A stretch of DNA of 26,873 nucleotides. It comes from a virus. Positions 7,113 to 24,563 of this stretch are shown piece by piece. The stretch covers positions 1-26,873 of IMG/VR virus record IMGVR_UViG_3300040856_003409; one strand, given 5' to 3'. Below the pieces are notes generated by a model. The model was not told the DNA's origin and did no database searches. It saw only the letters and a program-made list of their open reading frames with translations. Each line of letters opens with the position of its first letter. Position 1 is the first letter of the stretch. The translations under genes were made by a program, and so were the position numbers.

Positions 7113-8942
7113 ATGACACATGTACCAGTTTCGGATATAGAATTATCTACAGCGGGAAATATGCAAGCTTCTTCGTTAGATGATGCTAATAATTTATTGT
7201 ATGTTGCTAATGGTCGATATATCTCAATAATAAATACAGCAACTCAACTTGAAATAGAAACAATAGATTGTTCAGAAACAAGTTCAGGTAGTAGTCAAGT
7301 TCAAGATATTTTAGTAGATAGCATCAGAAACAAATTATACATTACCGCAGGCTACTATTTTCTTGTTTATGATTTATCTACAGCTAGCTTCACGACACAG
7401 CTTGGGCCAATGAATTCAGAGGGTTTAAACATACTCCACAAAATTATTATTCATGAATCTGAGAACAAGATATATGTTCAAGATAGATATAACAGAATTG
7501 GGGCCATTAACATAGCAGACTATAGTTTTATTGAAACTATTTCTGGTTCTCTATATACAACGTCTTTGCAATACCGAAATGCAGGAATATATGACGAAGA
7601 TGTTCGCGTCACAACAACAACTACGCGAAGCCCCAACTCAGAATACTTATTGTTATCTGCTAATTCTGAATCTAGCAATGTGTCTATTTTTGATACACTT
7701 TCTGATACACGTTTAGATATACTTACCGGTTCTAGCACTTATCCACAACGGATTGCATATCACTCAGCCAACAGACTTGCCTATGTAACAAATTACGATA
7801 GCAACAAAATTAGCATACTTGACATTGATACAAACTCAATAAACAATACTATTACAGTCCCAAGGGGTATATCTGATATTGTTATAGATGAGTCTACAAA
7901 TATTATGTTTGCTATCAATAGTTTAGATAACACGATGTTAACAATAAATCTTACAGACAATAGTACATTCAATACCATCGACTTAAACTTAAGACCAATT
8001 AGATTGTTTCATGCTCCAAGTCTTGGGGCTATTTTTATATCAGCTTCTGATAGTAGCGACGGAGTAACAGATCATAGAATACTAATTTTAAATACTTCCT
8101 CTTTTGAATTATCAACTTGGCTATTTCGTCCAGCAACCCAAACCTGTGAACCATTTACTTTGCATTATTATGAAAACATAGTTGATTTAATTCCAAAAAA
8201 GACTTTATACGTAGCCTCTCCAGAATGTAACGTTCTTTATAGATACGAAAGAGATGAAAACTATGATTTATTTACATCTTCTTTGTCAATTAGATACAAG
8301 GAAGCAATATCAGTTGGTGGAATTTATGACATTTTAGTTTCTAGTCAAAATAATCTATTATATATTTCATCACAATCTGAGGATAAAATCTATGTTGTTA
8401 ATCCAAATGATATTAGTGAAGAATACTTCAAAATACCAGTATCAGCAGGCCCAGCCTCTCTATCTTTAGATGAAAATGACAACAGGCTTTATGTTAGCCA
8501 CCCGCTTACCAATAAGATCACGGTAATCAACACATACAATCATACAGTTATTTCAGAAATAGACACCCAAGAATTCCCGGATGGTATTATGAATATAAAT
8601 CCAACCCCACCCACGACATTACCACCAGAGGCAAACATGCTAACAATTCCATCTATGGAAATTAACCACGACGAAGAAGACTATGTAGTATTTTACGGTC
8701 AACCTAATGATACTTTGCAATACAACAAAATCGCAACCGGAGATATCAATATTCCGCTAGTCATAAAAGAACTTTATATTTACATTGACGAAAACGGTGA
8801 TGGTAATAGTGTACTATCTAATAGAATAACTGTTCCGCAGGAATACATTAATCAACAAGGTGTTTTTAATCTAAAGTCTTATACTTCTAACTTTGCCGCT
8901 GGTGAAGATTATGGAGATCACAGGAGAATATACTTGTCATGA
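7113..8942 (+). CDS. YVTN-type beta-propeller virion protein
   Basis: 609 residues, start chosen at an ATG with GAGGA seven bases upstream (7101-7105). Repeats of the form 'LYVxN...ISIIN...ETI' mark YVTN/NHL-like propeller blades. I count three blades before a Thr-rich linker near residue 165 and seven after it (about 175-490, for example 'LAYVTNYDSNKISILDID' and 'RLYVSHPLTNKITVIN'). A second linker ('PTPPTTLPP', about 495-504) leads to a C-terminal beta domain of about 105 residues with an acidic loop 'IDENGDGNS' that resembles a calcium-binding turn. YVTN propellers are known in archaeal surface-layer and bacterial extracellular proteins. A particle-surface binding role is inferred from neighbours. 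The stop overlaps the next start (ATGA). Confidence 0.87.
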   Translation: MTHVPVSDIELSTAGNMQASSLDDANNLLYVANGRYISIINTATQLEIETIDCSETSSGSSQVQDILVDSIRNKLYITAGYYFLVYDLSTASFTTQLGPMNSEGLNILHKIIIHESENKIYVQDRYNRIGAINIADYSFIETISGSLYTTSLQYRNAGIYDEDVRVTTTTTRSPNSEYLLLSANSESSNVSIFDTLSDTRLDILTGSSTYPQRIAYHSANRLAYVTNYDSNKISILDIDTNSINNTITVPRGISDIVIDESTNIMFAINSLDNTMLTINLTDNSTFNTIDLNLRPIRLFHAPSLGAIFISASDSSDGVTDHRILILNTSSFELSTWLFRPATQTCEPFTLHYYENIVDLIPKKTLYVASPECNVLYRYERDENYDLFTSSLSIRYKEAISVGGIYDILVSSQNNLLYISSQSEDKIYVVNPNDISEEYFKIPVSAGPASLSLDENDNRLYVSHPLTNKITVINTYNHTVISEIDTQEFPDGIMNINPTPPTTLPPEANMLTIPSMEINHDEEDYVVFYGQPNDTLQYNKIATGDINIPLVIKELYIYIDENGDGNSVLSNRITVPQEYINQQGVFNLKSYTSNFAAGEDYGDHRRIYLS

Positions 8943-9647: not shown

Positions 9648-12600
9648 ATGGTTTGCAAATACTCAACCAATATAAATAATTTATGGGAGGGTATTGCATC
9701 TGGACCATACGCTACAAACGATGATTGTTTAAGTGCTTGCTTTACAACACAGCCTCCAGTTATCTTAGATTGTTTAGATAGTTACACTTTAGATCCAACC
9801 ATACATGGTGGTACTTGTGGAAACTTTTCATACCTCGACACCAGTATTTATGCTTACAAGGGTGATTTGATCAAAATTAATGCTAATGGCTCCATTCGAT
9901 ATCATCCTGATCGACCGTTTATTTCTCCAGATGGTGATGATACTGTACAGCGTGTTCCTGAATTTGCCGATCCGCCATGTATAACACCCAGCATTAATTA
10001 TGAGCCAATATTAGCAAAAATAGGAAATTCTATTATACCTATTGGTTCTGATGTTTCAATTGTTGCTCCAGAAGATGGCTTGTTGCAATTTTTTATTATT
10101 GACTCACCACTAAGTGATAATGCTGGATCTTACAATATACAAGCATCTAATTTAACTTCGTATAGATGGTTTGATGGAGATGATAAATTAGACGAAGTAA
10201 GTATAATAAGCAGCGTAGCTTCAGGCGGGGCAATTATTAGAACTACTCTACAAGCGGTCGGTTGCAGTAAAGCAGCTTTGCCAGCTAGATTTCAACTCCC
10301 AAACGATGCTTTATATTCATTTGCACCCACAGCTGGTTCTGTAACTTTTACATTTTCAGATCCATGCAAAGATCTTCTTTTATATATTGGAAGTCTTGGG
10401 GAATTGTCTACTGCCGCTAGTCTTTCTTTTAATGTTCCTTTTGAAATTATATCTGATTCTGTTGACTCAACTGCTGATTGTAACGGTGAAACACCAACAA
10501 TTCTAACAAGCTTTGGCCTTACCGTTTCTGGAAATCAAGGTTTTGGAATAATTAAATTTCCCGGTTTTCATAAACAAATAACTGTTGATTGCTCTTTAAA
10601 TATCGACTACACATTTTTGCGATGGGGTTTGCTTGGGTCTTCTCAATGTTCTTGGAATATTGTAACAGCCTCTCCATACGCAAGATTATCGTACTGGCCA
10701 TATCCACAAACGCCGCTGGAAAGAACATATGAAGCCCCATATGCTGCTTCTGAATATCATATTATTTTTGATATCTGGGGATTTCCTGATCGCTTACAAA
10801 TTTATTCTGAAGATGATTCAGGTTCTAGAAGTTTACTTTTTGATAGAAATGTTCTAACTGGAACATACCCAGACGGAACTCCAGCAGATGGTTGTTCAAC
10901 TGCTTTAGATTTTTGTCATGGTCCCGGACCAAAAGCTTTATCTGAAAAATTCATGAAACCAGAAGGTGTACAAAAATTAGTAGTAATACAAAGTACTCAA
11001 CAAAGTAGTGGCTTAAGTGGTCAGTATTTATCCATTAAAGCGTCTGATAATCTGCTTAAAAACTCTACGCTTACACCTAGAACATTTATTGGGTCTGATT
11101 GTTACATAAGAATACCTGAAACAGAACTTATTCACTGGAAAGCAATGAACGATCTTGATATATGCAAAGTAACTGTTTTTCAATCTGCCCCAAGCAGAAC
11201 TCCTCCATATAAAGATTATGAATATAAATTAGATTTGTATGGAACCTCATCTTCAAGCTCCATTGGCTCAATAGAACAAGATGTTGTTTTACAGCCTGAC
11301 ACAGAACATGTTTTATATTTTGATTTACTTAGTAACCTATCAGGCAGTCCAACAGATGCAAAAAGAATTTATGTAGACGTAACAGAAACTGTTAGCGGCT
11401 CATCGGTTTTTAGTACCGTCGTTGATTTCCAAGACTATTTTCAACCAAATGTTTTTTCTGCTATAGCCACAAGACAGAGATTAACTTTCACAACTAATGC
11501 AACCCAGTACTATACTGTTAAATTTTCTTCTGATGATATTTCCGGTAATTACGGAGGAGTTTTAGTAAGGCCGTATTTGAGACCGCTTAATCTTGAGCCA
11601 GTACGTGATAAAACTGTTGATATAACTAATTTCTCACAAGATGGTAACGGTAGACTCAACCTTACATATTCAGTGTATGATTATGATAGCACAACGGGTA
11701 CTGTTGTTAAAATACAGAAACTAATACAACCAACAAATGGAACACCCTATTATTCAACTGTGTATACTACCGTTAGTGATGAAAATGGATTCACTAACTT
11801 GAGCGACACATTGTGGAACCCAAACAACGAATATGAAAGTTTTCGCGCAATAGTATTTAACCGTCAAGGCCATGCTTCTGTTAGTAATACTATTGCTGGC
11901 GGTATTCCATTTTACACGCGAGATCTTACTTATGGCAGTAATATATTTTTAGCCGTCACTCCAAATGTTTATAGTTCCACCGATGGCTCAAGTTGGAATA
12001 GAAATCTCTCTTCTAATTGGAATATTTTGGATGACAAAATCAAACTTGTCGGTAGTGAATTTTTTGCCTTTTCTTCGTCTGGGTATAAGACTGCTTTGAG
12101 TCCATACGACGGCACTTCTTGGGATGCATCGCGCTTTTTTGGTAACGTCACCTTGGTTGGTAACGTCACCTCCGTAACAGATGTAGCCTACGGTGGCGGT
12201 AAATATATAGCAGTTAGCAGTAGTAATAATGAGTATGCAATAAGTTCAGATAGAATAAATTGGACAAGACAACTTTTTCCATTTGTTGGCGCAGGAATTG
12301 AACCATATTGGAATTCTATAGCTTATGGAGGTTTAGTTTTTATAGCTGTGGCGAGATATTGGAGTTCGACGAGACCTAAAGCTGTAGCTATTAGCACAGA
12401 CCAAGGATCAACTTGGACTTATATTACCAGCCTGTTTCCATCTTCATTTGCTCCTACTACAGTTTTCTTTGCTGATTCTAAGTTTATTATTTTTGGTGGC
12501 GGATCAGTTTATTACAGCGAAGATTTTGGACAAACATGGCATTTCATTAGTCTTGTGAGTGTTGGTAATTTACATAAAGTTGCTTATGGCAATGGAAATT

Positions 12601-12827
12601 TTGTTTTTAATGAGCGAAATCGTAATTTAATCACCATTGTTAATAATTTTAGTGGCGGCTCACAAGGAAATACTTTTCAAGTATCACTTCCAGCTTTGCC
12701 AACAAACTCTCTCTGGGATGGTATAGCTTCAGACGGTCATAATAATTTTGTAACAGTTGCTACTTTTTCTAACATTGCCGCTAGAAGTATAGATGGTGGT
12801 TTCACTTGGACTCAACATGTCATTTAA
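9648..12827 (+). CDS. Large modular virion protein ending in Asp-box (BNR-like) propeller
   Basis: 1059 residues; ATG with GAGG six bases upstream (9638-9641). It opens with a Cys module ('SGPYATNDDCLSAC') like those in the gene at 5863. Several beta-rich domains follow. Residues about 369-465 match a module in the gene at 2566 (conserved 'KPEGV' or 'KPEGI' near its end). Residues about 650-765 look fibronectin- or Ig-like. Residues about 765-1059 have Asp-box motifs: 'SSTDGSSW', 'SPYDGTSW', 'SSDRINW', 'STDQGSTW', 'SEDFGQTW', a degenerate sixth unit and 'SIDGGFTW', probably a seven-bladed sialidase/VPS10-type fold. No sialidase catalytic Arg triad can be argued, so a binding role is likelier than an enzyme. 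It is the last of the six surface-type genes before the neck genes. Confidence 0.86.
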   Translation: MVCKYSTNINNLWEGIASGPYATNDDCLSACFTTQPPVILDCLDSYTLDPTIHGGTCGNFSYLDTSIYAYKGDLIKINANGSIRYHPDRPFISPDGDDTVQRVPEFADPPCITPSINYEPILAKIGNSIIPIGSDVSIVAPEDGLLQFFIIDSPLSDNAGSYNIQASNLTSYRWFDGDDKLDEVSIISSVASGGAIIRTTLQAVGCSKAALPARFQLPNDALYSFAPTAGSVTFTFSDPCKDLLLYIGSLGELSTAASLSFNVPFEIISDSVDSTADCNGETPTILTSFGLTVSGNQGFGIIKFPGFHKQITVDCSLNIDYTFLRWGLLGSSQCSWNIVTASPYARLSYWPYPQTPLERTYEAPYAASEYHIIFDIWGFPDRLQIYSEDDSGSRSLLFDRNVLTGTYPDGTPADGCSTALDFCHGPGPKALSEKFMKPEGVQKLVVIQSTQQSSGLSGQYLSIKASDNLLKNSTLTPRTFIGSDCYIRIPETELIHWKAMNDLDICKVTVFQSAPSRTPPYKDYEYKLDLYGTSSSSSIGSIEQDVVLQPDTEHVLYFDLLSNLSGSPTDAKRIYVDVTETVSGSSVFSTVVDFQDYFQPNVFSAIATRQRLTFTTNATQYYTVKFSSDDISGNYGGVLVRPYLRPLNLEPVRDKTVDITNFSQDGNGRLNLTYSVYDYDSTTGTVVKIQKLIQPTNGTPYYSTVYTTVSDENGFTNLSDTLWNPNNEYESFRAIVFNRQGHASVSNTIAGGIPFYTRDLTYGSNIFLAVTPNVYSSTDGSSWNRNLSSNWNILDDKIKLVGSEFFAFSSSGYKTALSPYDGTSWDASRFFGNVTLVGNVTSVTDVAYGGGKYIAVSSSNNEYAISSDRINWTRQLFPFVGAGIEPYWNSIAYGGLVFIAVARYWSSTRPKAVAISTDQGSTWTYITSLFPSSFAPTTVFFADSKFIIFGGGSVYYSEDFGQTWHFISLVSVGNLHKVAYGNGNFVFNERNRNLITIVNNFSGGSQGNTFQVSLPALPTNSLWDGIASDGHNNFVTVATFSNIAARSIDGGFTWTQHVI
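12139..12171 (+). repeat. 18-bp tandem duplication of an imperfect palindrome inside a coding region
   Basis: The 15-base segment TTGGTAACGTCACCT occurs at 12139-12153 and again at 12157-12171. It encodes 'GNVT' twice. Its core GGTAACGTCACC is a near-palindrome with one mismatched pair. It is most likely a slippage duplication. Confidence 0.85.
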
Positions 12828-18392: not shown

Positions 18393-18407
18393 GAGGGCGT
18401 TTATGTG
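18393..18407 (+). promoter_or_regulatory. Start region of the tape measure gene: GAGGG and overlapping ATG/GTG starts
   Basis: GAGGG (18393-18397) serves both ATG 18403 and GTG 18405, which overlap as ATGTG. ATG 18403 opens a frame of only six codons before a stop at 18421-18423. GTG 18405 opens the full tape measure frame, so it must be the real start, with spacing of seven bases. Confidence 0.72.
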
Positions 18408-21400
18408 TCAAAATTCGTACTAACAGCACAGTTACAGCTTCAAGCACCCAACAACGTTCGTCAAGTTGTTGATCAGATACAAAAACAGCTAAAGGGCGTT
18501 AGTGTTAACGTTCAGGTTCAAGGTGCGCAACAAGCCCAGCAACACGTTCAGCAACTTGCAAAGTCTACCCAGCAAGCCTCTACGGCAGCTGCTAAACTTG
18601 GTGAAAATTTTGGTAAATCGATACGCCGTTTTTCAGCGATGGCTATCGCTACTAGGGCTGTTGGTTTATTTACCAATAAGCTTGGTGCGGCTATTGAAGA
18701 ATCAATTGCTTTTGAAAGAGAATTGATTAAAATTGCGCAAGTAACTGGCCAGACAACTAAACAGCTTTCCTTTTTAACTAAAACAGTTTCAGATCTATCT
18801 ACCAGCTTAGGTGTAAGTTCTTCTTCATTACTAAGTGTAAGTAGAATACTATCTCAAGCTGGTCTGTCTGCCAAAGAAACACAAGTTGCTTTAGCTGCTT
18901 TAGCTAAAAGTGATTTAGCTCCTACGTTTGATGATATTACTCAAACAGCAGAAGGCGCTGTTGCGGTATTCAACCAGTTTAGACAGGGCGCTGCGGCATT
19001 AGAAGCACAGCTTGGTTCTATTAATGCTGTTGCTGGACAGTTTGCTGTTGAGGCTGGTGATTTAATTTCAGTTGTTAGAAGAACTGGCGGTGTTTTTAAA
19101 GCTGCTGGCGGTGATCTAAATGAACTTATTGCATTATTCACTAGCGTTAGATCAACAACCAGAGAGTCCGCTGAAAGTATTGCTACGGGCTTACGTACTA
19201 TTTTTACACGTATTCAACGCCCCAAAACAATTGAATACTTAAAAAGATATGGTGTTGAGCTAACTGATTTAGAAGGTAAGTTTGTCGGCCCATATGAAGC
19301 TACACGTAGGTTAAGTCAAGCCTTAGCTGGACTAGAAGAAGGCGATATTACATTTGTTGAAATTGCTGAACAGCTTGGTGGATTTAGACAGATTGGTAAA
19401 GTTATTCCGTTATTACAACAATTTAGTGTAGCTCAACAAGCTTTAAATGTTGCTCAAAAGGGCAGTTCTTCTTTAGCGAAAGATGCGGCAACTGCCCAGC
19501 AATCTCTAGCTGTGCAAATTATAAAAGTTAAAGAAGAGTTCTTTGAACTCATAAGAGGCGTTACAGAAACAGCCACTTTTCAAATCATGGCTAGTAGCGC
19601 CCTAACTTTAGCGTCTGCCTTGGTGAAAGTTCTGGATGCCCTTAAGCCAATTTTACCAATAATTACAGCAATCGCTGCTGTTAAATTCGTGAAAGGCTTC
19701 TCAGGATTTTTAGGAGGTATTGCTGGTGGCTTAGGAGGAGGAAAGGGCTTTAATACTGGTGGGAAGGTCACTGCTTTTGCTAGAGGAGGTGTTGTTCCCG
19801 GAACTGGCAATAGAGATACAGTTCCTGCAATGCTTACACCGGGAGAGTTTGTAATTAAGAAGAGTAGCGTTGCTAAATTAGGTGCTGCAAATTTGGCAGC
19901 GATGAATGAGAACCGTTTTGAAGATGGTGGTCAAGTTAAGATCAAAGTTGACAATGGAGCTGTTGGCGGGTTTTTCTTAACGCCAGACCAAGGTACAGAT
20001 CGAAATTTTGATCTTAGTAAAGGGACTGCCGTAGGAAAGAAAATTACCAACCCAAATGTTATTTCTTCAATTTCTGGAGGTGGTGACCTTACTGATGATC
20101 AGCTTTTAAGTTCTTTAAGTGGCGCAGCTAGAGTAAGAATTTTTGGAAACGTTGTGGGCAAAAAAGGTAAATCTCAACTTAAAGGCCCAATCACAGCTAA
20201 TACCCCAATACAGACTAAAATTAAAGACCCGCAAGGTAAATACAAAAGTATGACCTTTAAAGATCTTGGCAAAGAAGGCCAAGAAAGATTAAAGAAAGAG
20301 TCAAACACTGGAACCTCTACTGTTACCGCAGGCTTAGAAGTTGCTTCTTTAACTGGTACAGGGGTTGGGTTTTTACCCGGACAAGACATAAAACAAAATG
20401 CCCAAATCGCTAGCGCCGTTGGTTTAGCGACTCAGAAAATTTTAACACAAGGAGTTACTGAAGGTGCGCAGAAAATATTATCGCTAGGAAACTTTGGTGA
20501 CGTTATAAAGTTAGATAAAGACGGTCTTTCCGGCGCTGATAGATTGGCTAGTGACCCAAACGCAAAAGCTAGCGTTGAAGGTTTCTTATTTGAAGGAATA
20601 ATTGATGCAATTACTGGAGCTAATCTAGCTGGTAAGCAGGCAGCTTTTGATTTTCCCAACTCTTCCTTACAGGCTAATAAGAAAGCGTTGGAAAGATTTT
20701 TTACCCCGTCTGGTAGTATTGGTAATTTAATAAACGCAGATGCTAAGAGATCTTATTCTTTAAAGGATACTATCGCTTCTAAAATTATTAGTGATATCAA
20801 CGCTGGCAATACCAAAGGTTATGATATTGAACGATTTGCTTCTGGAGGTTCAGCTACTGGAACAGATACAGTTCCAGCCCTATTAACTCCCGGTGAGTTT
20901 GTTGTAAATAAAAAATCTGCCCAGAAGATTGGTTACGGTTCGTTAAACCGAATGAATAAGGTCGGTAAGTACGCCAATGGTGGAATTGTTCAGCACTTTA
21001 AGGGTGGGGGTGGAGTTGCCGCTACTGGCGGCGGCGGTTTGACTGGTTTGGGCGCTATGAATGAGGGGTTACTTGGAGTTAGCATGGCTTTGAATATGTT
21101 AACACCAACCATAGATGAAACTAGCTCTACTTTTACAAAAATGGTTGCTGGCGGAATGGAAGCTATTACAACTATAAGTAATTTAGCACTAACCGTAACA
21201 GCTTTAAGTACTGCTATGAAAACTGAGATGCTTGGCGGTATGCTAACTTCTTTAAAGAAATTTAGTTCAGCAATGAAATCTGGTGCATCTGCTGGCGCAT
21301 CTAGAAGTCAAATGGCATCGCAAATGAGAAAATTTAGAGCAGATAATCCTATGGTTGAAGGCTCTTCCTTTCAGATAGATAGAAAAGCTCTTAGAAACGA

Positions 21401-24400
21401 TGTTTTTAAAACTAGACCAATAAAACCTACTGGTGTGGCTGGAAAAGCTGGAAATATTTTAGGGCGAGGTGTAGAAAAATTAGGAAAAACATTCCCAACT
21501 TTTACAAGGCTTCTTGGAAGTGCTGGTAAATTGCTAGGAACATTCGGAACATCTTTAGCCGGTTTTGCTCCAGCGATTGCCGCAGCAGCTGGTCCGATAG
21601 CGGCAATAGCAGCTATTGGTGCTGTTGTAGGAGGAGTTATATCTGGCTTTAGAGATTTAGATGCTAGACTAAAAGACGCTGTTGATGCTCAAGACACCGC
21701 AGCCGCTAAAAGTTTAGCTATAGCTCAAGCAGCGGAGCAAAATTTTGGAGGCGTAGTAGCCGGAATAGCTTCTTTGTTTGGTGATGCTGGAAATGAATTT
21801 TTACTTGGTATAAGCAGTTTTTTTGGTGGACAATCTTCTACCGCAATTAAAACAGATATCGCAGCAAAAATACAAAGTGCTAAAACAACCAAATCATTAT
21901 CTGAAGCTCAAACCGTAGCCTCAAAAGCTATGGAGGATTTAAAAAATGGAACCATCACAGCAGCGGACGGTTTAAGAAAAGTTGCTAGTCTTACATCTGA
22001 AGCAAAAAAAAATCAAGAACTTGCTAATCAAGCAATTGGCGCAAACGAAGAACAAAAAGCTGGAGGTGTTAGTGGTTTTTTCAGAAATGTAGCTTCTTTG
22101 GGTGGATTAACAAGCGTAGAAACTGTTGGTCAAAGAAATAGAAGAATAGATAGAGAAAATGAGGAAAGAAGCCAAGGCGCGATCCAACAAAGATCACAAG
22201 CGCTTGGTATAGAACGTCAACTCAGTATGGCTACTGCTAGAAGCACTTTTTCCACTGGTGGTAGTTACGAAGCAGCCGTAGCTAAAATTGGTGCTGCTGG
22301 AGGAGCAACGCCAGAATCATTAGCAGCAGAAGCTACAGAAAAAAGAAATCAAGCTTTTAAAGCCTACGGAGAAGGTGATACGGCAAAGGGAGATAGGTTA
22401 AAAGCAGAAGCTGATATGCTTTCTAGTAATGCTAGAGACATGGCTCAATCTCTTTTAAATCTACAAAAAGAGGTTGAAAAACAAAGAGCAGCTATAGCAG
22501 CAATGAATATGGGGCTTAATAGTGTTAATGGCGCAGCAAATGCAGTATCAGTTGGTTTGAATAATTATTTAGCTTCACAAGAAGCTGGCGCTGTAACTGT
22601 TGGCAATAGTTTAGCAACTCTTGAAGCTAGCATGACCGGAGCAGCAGTTGGTATTGGTAAGGCCGACTTTGAAAAGTCATTTAAGGACGTAAAAAATGTA
22701 TTAAAAGAATATGGTGCTACAGAAGGCTCATTAAAAAGTTTTGAAACAGGAATGAAATCTGTTTACGCTGCTCAGAAAAATGCTTCAAAAGGACTTGATG
22801 CATTTAAACAAAGATTATTTGATAGAAGCGATGCTGGGCTTGGTGGCGCTAATCAAGAAGAACAAGTTTCTGCATTGTTTGATGAAATTATTAAATCTTC
22901 CGGGTTAGACAAAGACGCAGGTGAAAATCTTAGAGCAAAACTAAAAGGTTTAGAAGATGAGCTAGATTGGGACGAAATTGGCGCTGGAGACTTTTCTTCA
23001 GTCGAAGAAGTACTTGCAAAAGTTGGTGAAGAGCAAGCAAAACAATTTAGAGATATTATTAAAGCAGAGCAGGAATATCAACAAGCCGTTGTTAGTATAA
23101 CCCAAAAACGTATTGCAGCTGAAGACGCTCTAACTCAAGCGTCAATGAAACGTATTGACTTGGAAATGGAAGCCGCACAAATAATTGCAGAAGCTGGTGG
23201 TCCAGCCGTTACAACGGAAATGAAGCGTGATGCTAATTTAAGAAAGTCTAACTTAGCAGTAGAAGGTATTAATGGCGTTGGCCCAATGAAGGATACAAGT
23301 GTCGCTTCTATCCGGGAAAGAAAAAGACAACTTGCCGAGCAGAAGATGGCACAAGGAAATGCAGTTAATGCTTCGGCAGATTCTGGCGAAGCAGTTGCTG
23401 GTGGAGTCGGCGCTGGAGTTGAGTTTGGAGCAAGCCAACAAAGAACAGTAGAAGCCGGTCAAGATCTTTACCGAACTATCAAAACAGAAATTGACATCAG
23501 AAAGCAAGAAATAAGCATAATACAGGCTAAGAATAAACTTGAAAAAGATTCTTTTGAAGCTTTAGCTTCTGGTGATTTGGAGGGATTTTTTGGCGCTCAA
23601 GCTACTCAGGGTGCTATTAGTTCTATTGCTAGTGGCGCTGGTGCTGGAGATTTTGATGCTGACACTCTCAAATCTGCTTTTGACGAACTAAAAAGACAAA
23701 AAGCAGCTGGAGTCACAGAAGTAGACGGACGTAACATTGATGATGTTCTTCAACAAACTGGAGAGGCTATGCTTCAGGCCAGAGGCATCGATCCAGCCCA
23801 AGCTTCTTCATTAGTCCAAAGGGAAGTTTCTGGTTCTCCAGAAGAACAAAAGCTAAACAACGAAATACAACAGTATGCAGCAGAATTGGCTGGTGTAGCT
23901 GATTTAGAAATTCAAGCTGCTAATCTACAAATACAAGCCGCCGAAAAACAATTAGTTGCAGCTGGAAAAATAAAAGATGACGCTATTCAAGAAGCTAAAG
24001 ACTCAACAGGAAAATCTAGAGGTGGATTAATCTATGCCGCCAAGGGCAGACTCATAAATTTTATTCCCAAGGGTACAGATACAGTTCCAGCGATGTTAAC
24101 TCCGGGAGAATTTGTAGTTAATCGTTCAGCCGTTCAACGAGGAAATAACCTCAATATTCTTAAAGCAATGAATCAAGGCTCTAATGTCGCTGCTCAAGCC
24201 CCAGCCCAAATGAAAAGGGGTGGCGTTGTTTACAGAGAAGCTGGTTCAACTGGTCCAGAATCTGGAAATTCTGGTGGATCTATGGGTGGTTTTGATCAAT
24301 CTGCTATGACTAATTTTACTAATGCTTTGAACAAGTTTAATGAAACCATACTACAAAGTATTAATACCCTACAAAATACAGCATTCACAGTTAAGCTTGA

Positions 24401-24563
24401 ACCGACAACTGTTAATATTAATTTAACAGGTACTTCATTCCTTAAAACTCTAACAGATGATATACAGAAAAATCTGTATGGAATGATTAGCAAGAGATTT
24501 GCAAACTTAAAAGTTGATCCCAACAACAGCGGAAGAGTCATAGAGAGCGCTAGCGAGGTATAG
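18405..24563 (+). CDS. Tail tape measure protein
   Basis: 2052 residues from GTG. It sets tail length inside the tube and later enters the host envelope with the genome. Residues about 60-340 are the classic phage tape-measure core (regular Ala/Ser-rich helices, 'FERELIKIAQVTGQTTKQLS', 'AGLSAKETQVALAALAKSD', 'TTRESAESIATGLRTIFTRI'). Hydrophobic segments lie near 395-445 and 1040-1085 ('FAPAIAAAAGPIAAIAAIG'). Three copies of a Gly-rich hinge with 'DTVPAMLTPGEFVVN' occur, with the conserved Pro at 479, 829 and 1900; such motifs recur in many tape measure proteins. Between the first two is an inserted globular region of about 300 residues with a PD-(D/E)XK-like pattern. Residues about 1130-1890 are long charged helices, probably coiled coils. 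The C-terminus is beta-rich then helical ('VKLEPTTVNINLTGTSFLK'). Identification is firm from length, composition and position. Confidence 0.95.
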   Translation: MSKFVLTAQLQLQAPNNVRQVVDQIQKQLKGVSVNVQVQGAQQAQQHVQQLAKSTQQASTAAAKLGENFGKSIRRFSAMAIATRAVGLFTNKLGAAIEESIAFERELIKIAQVTGQTTKQLSFLTKTVSDLSTSLGVSSSSLLSVSRILSQAGLSAKETQVALAALAKSDLAPTFDDITQTAEGAVAVFNQFRQGAAALEAQLGSINAVAGQFAVEAGDLISVVRRTGGVFKAAGGDLNELIALFTSVRSTTRESAESIATGLRTIFTRIQRPKTIEYLKRYGVELTDLEGKFVGPYEATRRLSQALAGLEEGDITFVEIAEQLGGFRQIGKVIPLLQQFSVAQQALNVAQKGSSSLAKDAATAQQSLAVQIIKVKEEFFELIRGVTETATFQIMASSALTLASALVKVLDALKPILPIITAIAAVKFVKGFSGFLGGIAGGLGGGKGFNTGGKVTAFARGGVVPGTGNRDTVPAMLTPGEFVIKKSSVAKLGAANLAAMNENRFEDGGQVKIKVDNGAVGGFFLTPDQGTDRNFDLSKGTAVGKKITNPNVISSISGGGDLTDDQLLSSLSGAARVRIFGNVVGKKGKSQLKGPITANTPIQTKIKDPQGKYKSMTFKDLGKEGQERLKKESNTGTSTVTAGLEVASLTGTGVGFLPGQDIKQNAQIASAVGLATQKILTQGVTEGAQKILSLGNFGDVIKLDKDGLSGADRLASDPNAKASVEGFLFEGIIDAITGANLAGKQAAFDFPNSSLQANKKALERFFTPSGSIGNLINADAKRSYSLKDTIASKIISDINAGNTKGYDIERFASGGSATGTDTVPALLTPGEFVVNKKSAQKIGYGSLNRMNKVGKYANGGIVQHFKGGGGVAATGGGGLTGLGAMNEGLLGVSMALNMLTPTIDETSSTFTKMVAGGMEAITTISNLALTVTALSTAMKTEMLGGMLTSLKKFSSAMKSGASAGASRSQMASQMRKFRADNPMVEGSSFQIDRKALRNDVFKTRPIKPTGVAGKAGNILGRGVEKLGKTFPTFTRLLGSAGKLLGTFGTSLAGFAPAIAAAAGPIAAIAAIGAVVGGVISGFRDLDARLKDAVDAQDTAAAKSLAIAQAAEQNFGGVVAGIASLFGDAGNEFLLGISSFFGGQSSTAIKTDIAAKIQSAKTTKSLSEAQTVASKAMEDLKNGTITAADGLRKVASLTSEAKKNQELANQAIGANEEQKAGGVSGFFRNVASLGGLTSVETVGQRNRRIDRENEERSQGAIQQRSQALGIERQLSMATARSTFSTGGSYEAAVAKIGAAGGATPESLAAEATEKRNQAFKAYGEGDTAKGDRLKAEADMLSSNARDMAQSLLNLQKEVEKQRAAIAAMNMGLNSVNGAANAVSVGLNNYLASQEAGAVTVGNSLATLEASMTGAAVGIGKADFEKSFKDVKNVLKEYGATEGSLKSFETGMKSVYAAQKNASKGLDAFKQRLFDRSDAGLGGANQEEQVSALFDEIIKSSGLDKDAGENLRAKLKGLEDELDWDEIGAGDFSSVEEVLAKVGEEQAKQFRDIIKAEQEYQQAVVSITQKRIAAEDALTQASMKRIDLEMEAAQIIAEAGGPAVTTEMKRDANLRKSNLAVEGINGVGPMKDTSVASIRERKRQLAEQKMAQGNAVNASADSGEAVAGGVGAGVEFGASQQRTVEAGQDLYRTIKTEIDIRKQEISIIQAKNKLEKDSFEALASGDLEGFFGAQATQGAISSIASGAGAGDFDADTLKSAFDELKRQKAAGVTEVDGRNIDDVLQQTGEAMLQARGIDPAQASSLVQREVSGSPEEQKLNNEIQQYAAELAGVADLEIQAANLQIQAAEKQLVAAGKIKDDAIQEAKDSTGKSRGGLIYAAKGRLINFIPKGTDTVPAMLTPGEFVVNRSAVQRGNNLNILKAMNQGSNVAAQAPAQMKRGGVVYREAGSTGPESGNSGGSMGGFDQSAMTNFTNALNKFNETILQSINTLQNTAFTVKLEPTTVNINLTGTSFLKTLTDDIQKNLYGMISKRFANLKVDPNNSGRVIESASEV
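19950..20850 (+). other. Inserted globular region of the tape measure protein with PD-(D/E)XK-like pattern
   Basis: Residues about 515-815 of the tape measure protein differ from the helical Ala-rich surroundings. They lie between two 'TPGEFV' hinges. The final third has E730 in a helix ('FLFEGIIDAIT'), D749 in a likely strand ('AAFDF'), then D779-A-K781 in another ('INADAKRSYS') followed by a helix ('LKDTIASKIISDI'). This order and spacing fit the Glu-helix, Asp, Asp/Glu-x-Lys, helix plan of PD-(D/E)XK nucleases. Whether it is an active nuclease, an inactive remnant or chance is not settled. Confidence 0.45.

Follow-up and report, generated by a model that had tools for sequence, protein, structure and literature searches.

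The largest gene of this 26.9-kb virus record encodes a protein that is identified as a tape measure protein from a Pfam PhageMin_Tail match over residues 126-312 (E = 4e-23) and from PHROG matches to tape-measure families. In what follows, the window is the whole 26,873-nucleotide stretch of DNA that was analysed. A first-pass annotation of the sequence had placed a nuclease-like region in this protein between two TPGEFV hinges, and both hinges are present (Table 1); a third TPGEF hinge near the C-terminus had not been included in that annotation. The four residues that it fitted to the PD-(D/E)XK plan, E730, D749, D779 and K781, also lie exactly where it placed them, with codons starting at 20592, 20649, 20739 and 20745. 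When the inter-hinge stretch was compared with Pfam and PHROG, no family recognised the nuclease-like domain.

Table 1. Positions in the window of the tape measure gene, its hinges, the inter-hinge cassette and the conserved residues of the nuclease-like domain.
Feature	Position	Strand	Evidence
Tape measure protein, 2052 aa, GTG start	18405..24563	+	Pfam PhageMin_Tail, PHROG
Hinge 1, TPGEFV, residue 478, left cassette edge	19836..19853	+	
Inter-hinge cassette containing the nuclease-like domain	19917..20870	+	
Nuclease-like domain core, residues 716-798, matched by core profile	20550..20798	+	
E730, predicted helix alpha-A	20592..20594	+	E in 122/123 non-redundant copies; helix in AlphaFold2 models
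D749, FDFP motif, at strand	20649..20651	+	D in 123/123 non-redundant copies
D779-A-K781, (D/E)xK motif on strand	20739..20747	+	D or E in 122/123, K in 112/123 non-redundant copies
K793, fifth conserved polar residue, following helix	20781..20783	+	92% K, 78 sequences
Hinge 2, TPGEFV, residue 828, right cassette edge	20886..20903	+	
Third hinge, TPGEFV, residue 1899, near C-terminus	24099..24116	+	

Conservation of the putative active site

Relatives were collected by a hinge-region search of viral contigs, which gave 80 loci, and the total reached 258 loci after other hinge regions and one cassette had been added as queries. An iterated profile seeded with ten sequences detected the domain in 69 of the tape measures from the initial locus set. 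A stricter core profile that contained no hinge sequence had matches in 184 of the 3,941 open frames in the 258 loci, and all 184 bear hinges. Because the profile is hinge-free and matched hinge-bearing frames only, its matches are neither due to the hinges nor spread over other genes. The core profile matched 171 of 198 tape-measure-like frames, and the nuclease-like domain is shown by these profile matches to be a near-obligatory part of the tape-measure family. With the window cassette alone as the query, a close-relative search of viral contigs returned no relatives and a search of annotated phages returned nothing convincing; a weak match in Tenacibaculum phage Gundel_1 proved not to be a relative when the core profile was applied to it. 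The hinge-carrying isolates (cyanophages S-SM2 and S-BM3, and marine virus AG-345-O18) gave no core-profile match. Two tape measures (L072 and L158) contain the nuclease-like core in two copies.

The first-pass annotation had matched E730, D749, D779 and K781 to the PD-(D/E)XK plan, and this match withstood the comparison with divergent homologues, in which the four positions are kept in 112-123 of the 123 non-redundant copies (Table 1). The four-residue pattern exceeds chance among these relatives. Mean column identity across an alignment of 78 cassettes is about 12%, and its top conserved columns are G726, E730, D749, K793, K781 and D779, with a few glycines and aromatics; K793 is a near-invariant extra lysine on the next helix after the DxK motif. 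Judged by sequence, the conservation profile is that of an active site within a fast-evolving protein, and the alignments show the active-site pattern retained while the remaining domain sequence diverges to background. We consider it quite unlikely that the domain is a catalytically inactive nuclease-like fold which serves as a DNA grip or spacer, for example for the genome end in the tail or at the membrane pore. Such a role would suit tape measures, which are structural proteins, and a domain with no known activity, and it would suit the loss of the DxK lysine in some sub-lineages (about 9% of copies). However, about 90% or more of the very divergent copies retain E, D and (D/E)xK, none of which a grip would need; moreover, replaced cassettes keep the motif though the remaining sequence is swapped.

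In a minority lineage (L027, L035, L060, L078, L118, L143, L154 and L195), D-x-K is replaced by D-x-T-R, and this sub-lineage has a Q-x-x-R-Y/W/F pattern on the following helix. The D-x-T-R copies may be inactive, or the basic residue may have been relocated.

The core profile missed 27 of the tape-measure-like frames, and the inter-hinge sequence was read for 21 of them. Most of these 21 cassettes have the same E..D..[DE]xK order with different spacing, as in L246 (FEAMVAKKYRLKTTGDNAYLDFLYGEAK), and several non-core cassettes have the short classical spacing between D and [DE]xK. In an alignment of twelve non-core cassettes, F-E, D and a later K are invariant and (D/E)-x-K/R is kept. By profile comparison, the non-core group is related to the core (P = 1.8e-5). 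In a few tape measures the same interval holds segments that are SNase-like (DGDT...DxxE) or HAD-like (DFDDT), the former between the hinges in L036, L082, L127 and L232, and the latter within the tape measure, either between the hinges or ahead of them, in L059, L073 and L133. A single SNase Pfam match was obtained, in L059 (E = 0.0026), and none in L232, L036 or L127; a PDB profile search with the short-group and SNase-like cassettes returned nothing. The SNase-like segments are a lead to a possible second nuclease fold in the same slot, and this assignment is weak.

Predicted structure and relation to the PD-(D/E)XK superfamily

The AlphaFold2 model of the window domain was weak, with an overall pLDDT of 64 that rose to 77-92 in the core, and it had no match among known structures. 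A compact relative, L010, which is 34% identical to the window cassette, was modelled with a pLDDT of 92 and a pTM of 0.83. In the L010 model, E148 is part of a long helix, D167 is next to a short strand, a strand carries D194 and K196, and K214 falls on the next helix; these residues correspond to E730, D749, D779, K781 and K793 of the window, respectively. The E on helix A is followed by D and then by (D/E)xK on strands, in the right order, the residues being conserved in the 123 copies and so placed in the L010 model. The secondary structure of this model fits the alpha-beta-beta-beta-alpha-beta core in part, but it shows no clear first canonical strand between helix A and the strand of the D. 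The confident L010 model was also compared with solved structures by Foldseek and VIA-align and no relative was found, so the fold is not confirmed; the missing match is compatible with a restriction-endonuclease-like fold. The earlier suggestion that the region follows the PD-(D/E)XK plan was borne out in its residue conservation and its helix/strand/strand/helix order, but not by a match to a solved fold.

When the domain profile was used in a PDB profile search, it found one other tape measure only, via the hinge. Profiles of several families, among them Mrr_cat and a PIN control, were built from genome searches for comparison. Mrr_cat gave the best, in-register alignment among the tested families for both the core and the short groups, but this alignment was not significant, with P = 0.11 for the core and P = 0.03 for the short group, and the corresponding values for the PIN control were 0.48 and 0.81. 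As a yardstick, true pairs within the PD-(D/E)XK superfamily gave values from P = 2e-12 (YraN-Mrr) to 0.004 (Mrr-VRR), and the profile similarity of the domain to known PD-(D/E)XK families is no more than suggestive. Membership of the domain in the superfamily is likely, though unproved, because of its motif order and conservation. It shares with the superfamily, in which Mrr_cat was the nearest family tested, the E on helix A, the D at a strand, the (D/E)xK on the next strand and the K on the following helix. It differs in its lack of a significant sequence or structural match, in a long helical insertion that separates D from (D/E)xK, in extra N-terminal strands and in its site inside a tape measure protein.

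Alternatively, the domain could be a different enzyme or metal-binding domain with a fold absent from the PDB, in which the E/D/DxK/K likeness arose by convergence. A confident model without a structural match would be expected of such a fold, as would the lack of Pfam and PHROG matches. We regard this as improbable, since the order, spacing and secondary-structure placement of the motif fit PD-(D/E)XK, related cassettes show its short classical form, and the best in-register alignment is that with Mrr_cat.

Cassettes are replaced whole, hinge to hinge

Between tape measures, identity over the 300 N-terminal residues that precede hinge 1 is mostly 40-99%, whereas cassette identity is about 25% regardless of N-terminal identity, and in some pairs N-termini that are 97-99% identical precede cassettes that are only 23-24% identical. 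The N-terminal conservation comes partly from the way in which the loci were retrieved, but the contrast within pairs is not explained by retrieval. Exchange was screened in 46 phage pairs with a DNA identity of at least 80% through hinge 1 (up to 99.8%), and the cassette DNA could not be aligned in 28 of them; these 28 have members in common and do not represent as many independent events. In these 28 pairs DNA homology stops at a median of 82 bp beyond hinge 1 (quartiles 80 and 91), and in every one of them it restarts at hinge 2, at a median of 51 bp before it. For example, L051 and L052 share 99.0% identity over 8,213 bp, to 74 bp beyond hinge 1, then have cassettes without detectable similarity, and match again from hinge 2. 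With L046, which is 99.8% identical to L052 through hinge 1, they form a trio with three different cassettes and the nuclease-like motif in each. In the swapped pairs generally, the motif is present in both members wherever the core profile detects the cassette. These DNA comparisons show that cassettes are replaced whole, hinge to hinge, between otherwise near-identical phages, which is stronger than the cassette-like insertion that the first-pass annotation had guessed. An assembly artefact is unlikely because many of the pairs come from different samples. We infer from the family that the window's own cassette is exchanged too, the window having no close enough relative.

The stretch after hinge 2 (about 21000-21500 in the window) often diverges to background as well between close relatives. 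The cassette and this region vary independently, because in L005/L034 and L097/L208 the region after hinge 2 is kept and the cassette is different.

In those pairs for which longer flanks are available, the cassette had been exchanged without any neighbouring gene. In particular, no cognate immunity gene was swapped with it in L051/L052, where the flank is continuous for 8.2 kb upstream, or in L011/L084, which is continuous for about 7.3 kb upstream and for 2.5 kb beyond the gene end. Hinge 1 is intact in 121 distinct tape measures, and in these the inter-hinge length ranges from 203 to 1851 aa (median 348).

An exchange that stops at the hinges could also be the work of a homing-like selfish cassette, which would cut the different cassette or DNA of a co-infecting phage and have the break repaired from its own allele by gene conversion, with the hinges as homology arms. 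Phage nucleases have been located at borders of genetic exchange, and tape-measure genes are a known insertion target of homing endonucleases (PMC10448857); moreover, such a cassette accounts directly for the exchange borders at the hinges. On the other hand, fused hinges, the expected empty allele, were found in none of the 121 tape measures, 118 of which have the second hinge, and intein-like ends (HN/NN[CST] near the cassette end) were found in only two. In almost every member, moreover, the nuclease would be an in-frame part of a structural protein, which an optional mobile element is not. An intein or an optional homing element was rejected as the main reading, there being no splice motifs and no empty alleles, and the homing-like reading is our second choice because empty alleles are lacking; we judge it rather unlikely.

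Tape-measure-binding host defences could instead be what drives the turnover, so that being different outweighs what the domain is. SNIPE recognises tape measures and phages escape it through tape-measure mutation (PMC13190303), and variability is much higher in the cassette than in the N-terminal region. However, such pressure leaves the retained nuclease residues in replaced cassettes unexplained, and the long variable region after hinge 2 could serve equally; we give this explanation very little weight.

A proposed nuclease effector carried by the tail

We hypothesize, with a probability of about one half, that residues ~510-820 form an exchangeable, metal-dependent nuclease effector domain of the PD-(D/E)XK type that is carried by the tail. 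Its putative site would consist of E730, D749 and D779-x-K781, assisted by K793. The tape measure would be ejected ahead of or with the genome and would span the inner membrane, so the nuclease would enter or face the cytoplasm at the start of infection, where it could cut chromosomal DNA of the host, plasmids or the DNA of competing phages. The turnover of the cassettes would then be an arms race over target specificity or inhibitors, in the style of polymorphic toxins. Delivery of a nuclease by the tail is plausible, because the lambda tape measure has been located at the inner membrane while DNA enters the cell (PMC13190303) and because Tme, a tape-measure-related effector of the Streptomyces davawensis contractile injection system, has a working endonuclease domain (PMC11126660). 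Tme and the window protein have in common a nuclease domain, in the window nuclease-like by sequence, on a tape-measure-like protein of a tail-like particle. The domain of Tme is C-terminal, of the EndA type (DRGH, H-N-N) and part of a bacterial injection system (PMC11126660), whereas that of the window is internal, PD-(D/E)XK-like, in a phage, bounded by hinges and exchangeable.

The parallel with polymorphic toxins (CDI, Rhs, colicins) lies in a conserved delivery part with an exchangeable effector module, often a nuclease; here the 28 hinge-to-hinge pairs reveal such an exchangeable module on a conserved carrier. In contrast to those toxins, the module is internal and not C-terminal, and it has no co-swapped immunity gene in the compared flanks. 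Tape measure proteins with embedded peptidoglycan hydrolases exist, and YomI of SPbeta is annotated as a transglycosylase. The window protein resembles them in having an enzyme domain, here a putative one, embedded in the tape measure, but its putative target is nucleic acid and not the cell wall, and its cassette is of a kind swapped between near-identical phages. A search limited to published open-access papers yielded no account of a phage tape measure with a PD-(D/E)XK domain. A survey of phage protein mosaicism found that tape measures look mosaic and confirmed no genuine recent case (PMC10684548), and here exchange is caught between phages whose DNA is 99% identical, the borders of the exchanged piece falling at a short conserved motif.

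Should the module prove to be an active nuclease, tape measures would act as vehicles that deliver exchangeable effectors, and the structure of the tail would be linked to early take-over of the cell, to competition in superinfection and to defences that sense tape measures. More tentatively, and at less than even odds, a family of environmental tailed phages might carry a polymorphic nuclease effector in the tape measure, traded hinge to hinge between near-identical phages with its active site preserved and delivered together with the genome, at the very start of infection, against the DNA of the host, of plasmids or of rival phages.

Two contigs with tape measures of the window's family (L083 and L087) are binned as SAR202 cluster bacterium, which is a possible, unproved hint at the host. 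Elsewhere in the window, the protein encoded at positions 8-2569 is large, contains many RCC1 repeats (Pfam RCC1, E = 1.5e-70) and weakly matches a baseplate/tail-fibre connector; it is probably an adhesin or tail fibre that forms a seven-bladed propeller. Weak beta-propeller-type matches were also obtained for two further proteins, at 7113-8942 and 9648-12827 (Lactonase/DUF5074; Sortilin-Vps10), and several propellers may be used in the tail of this phage.
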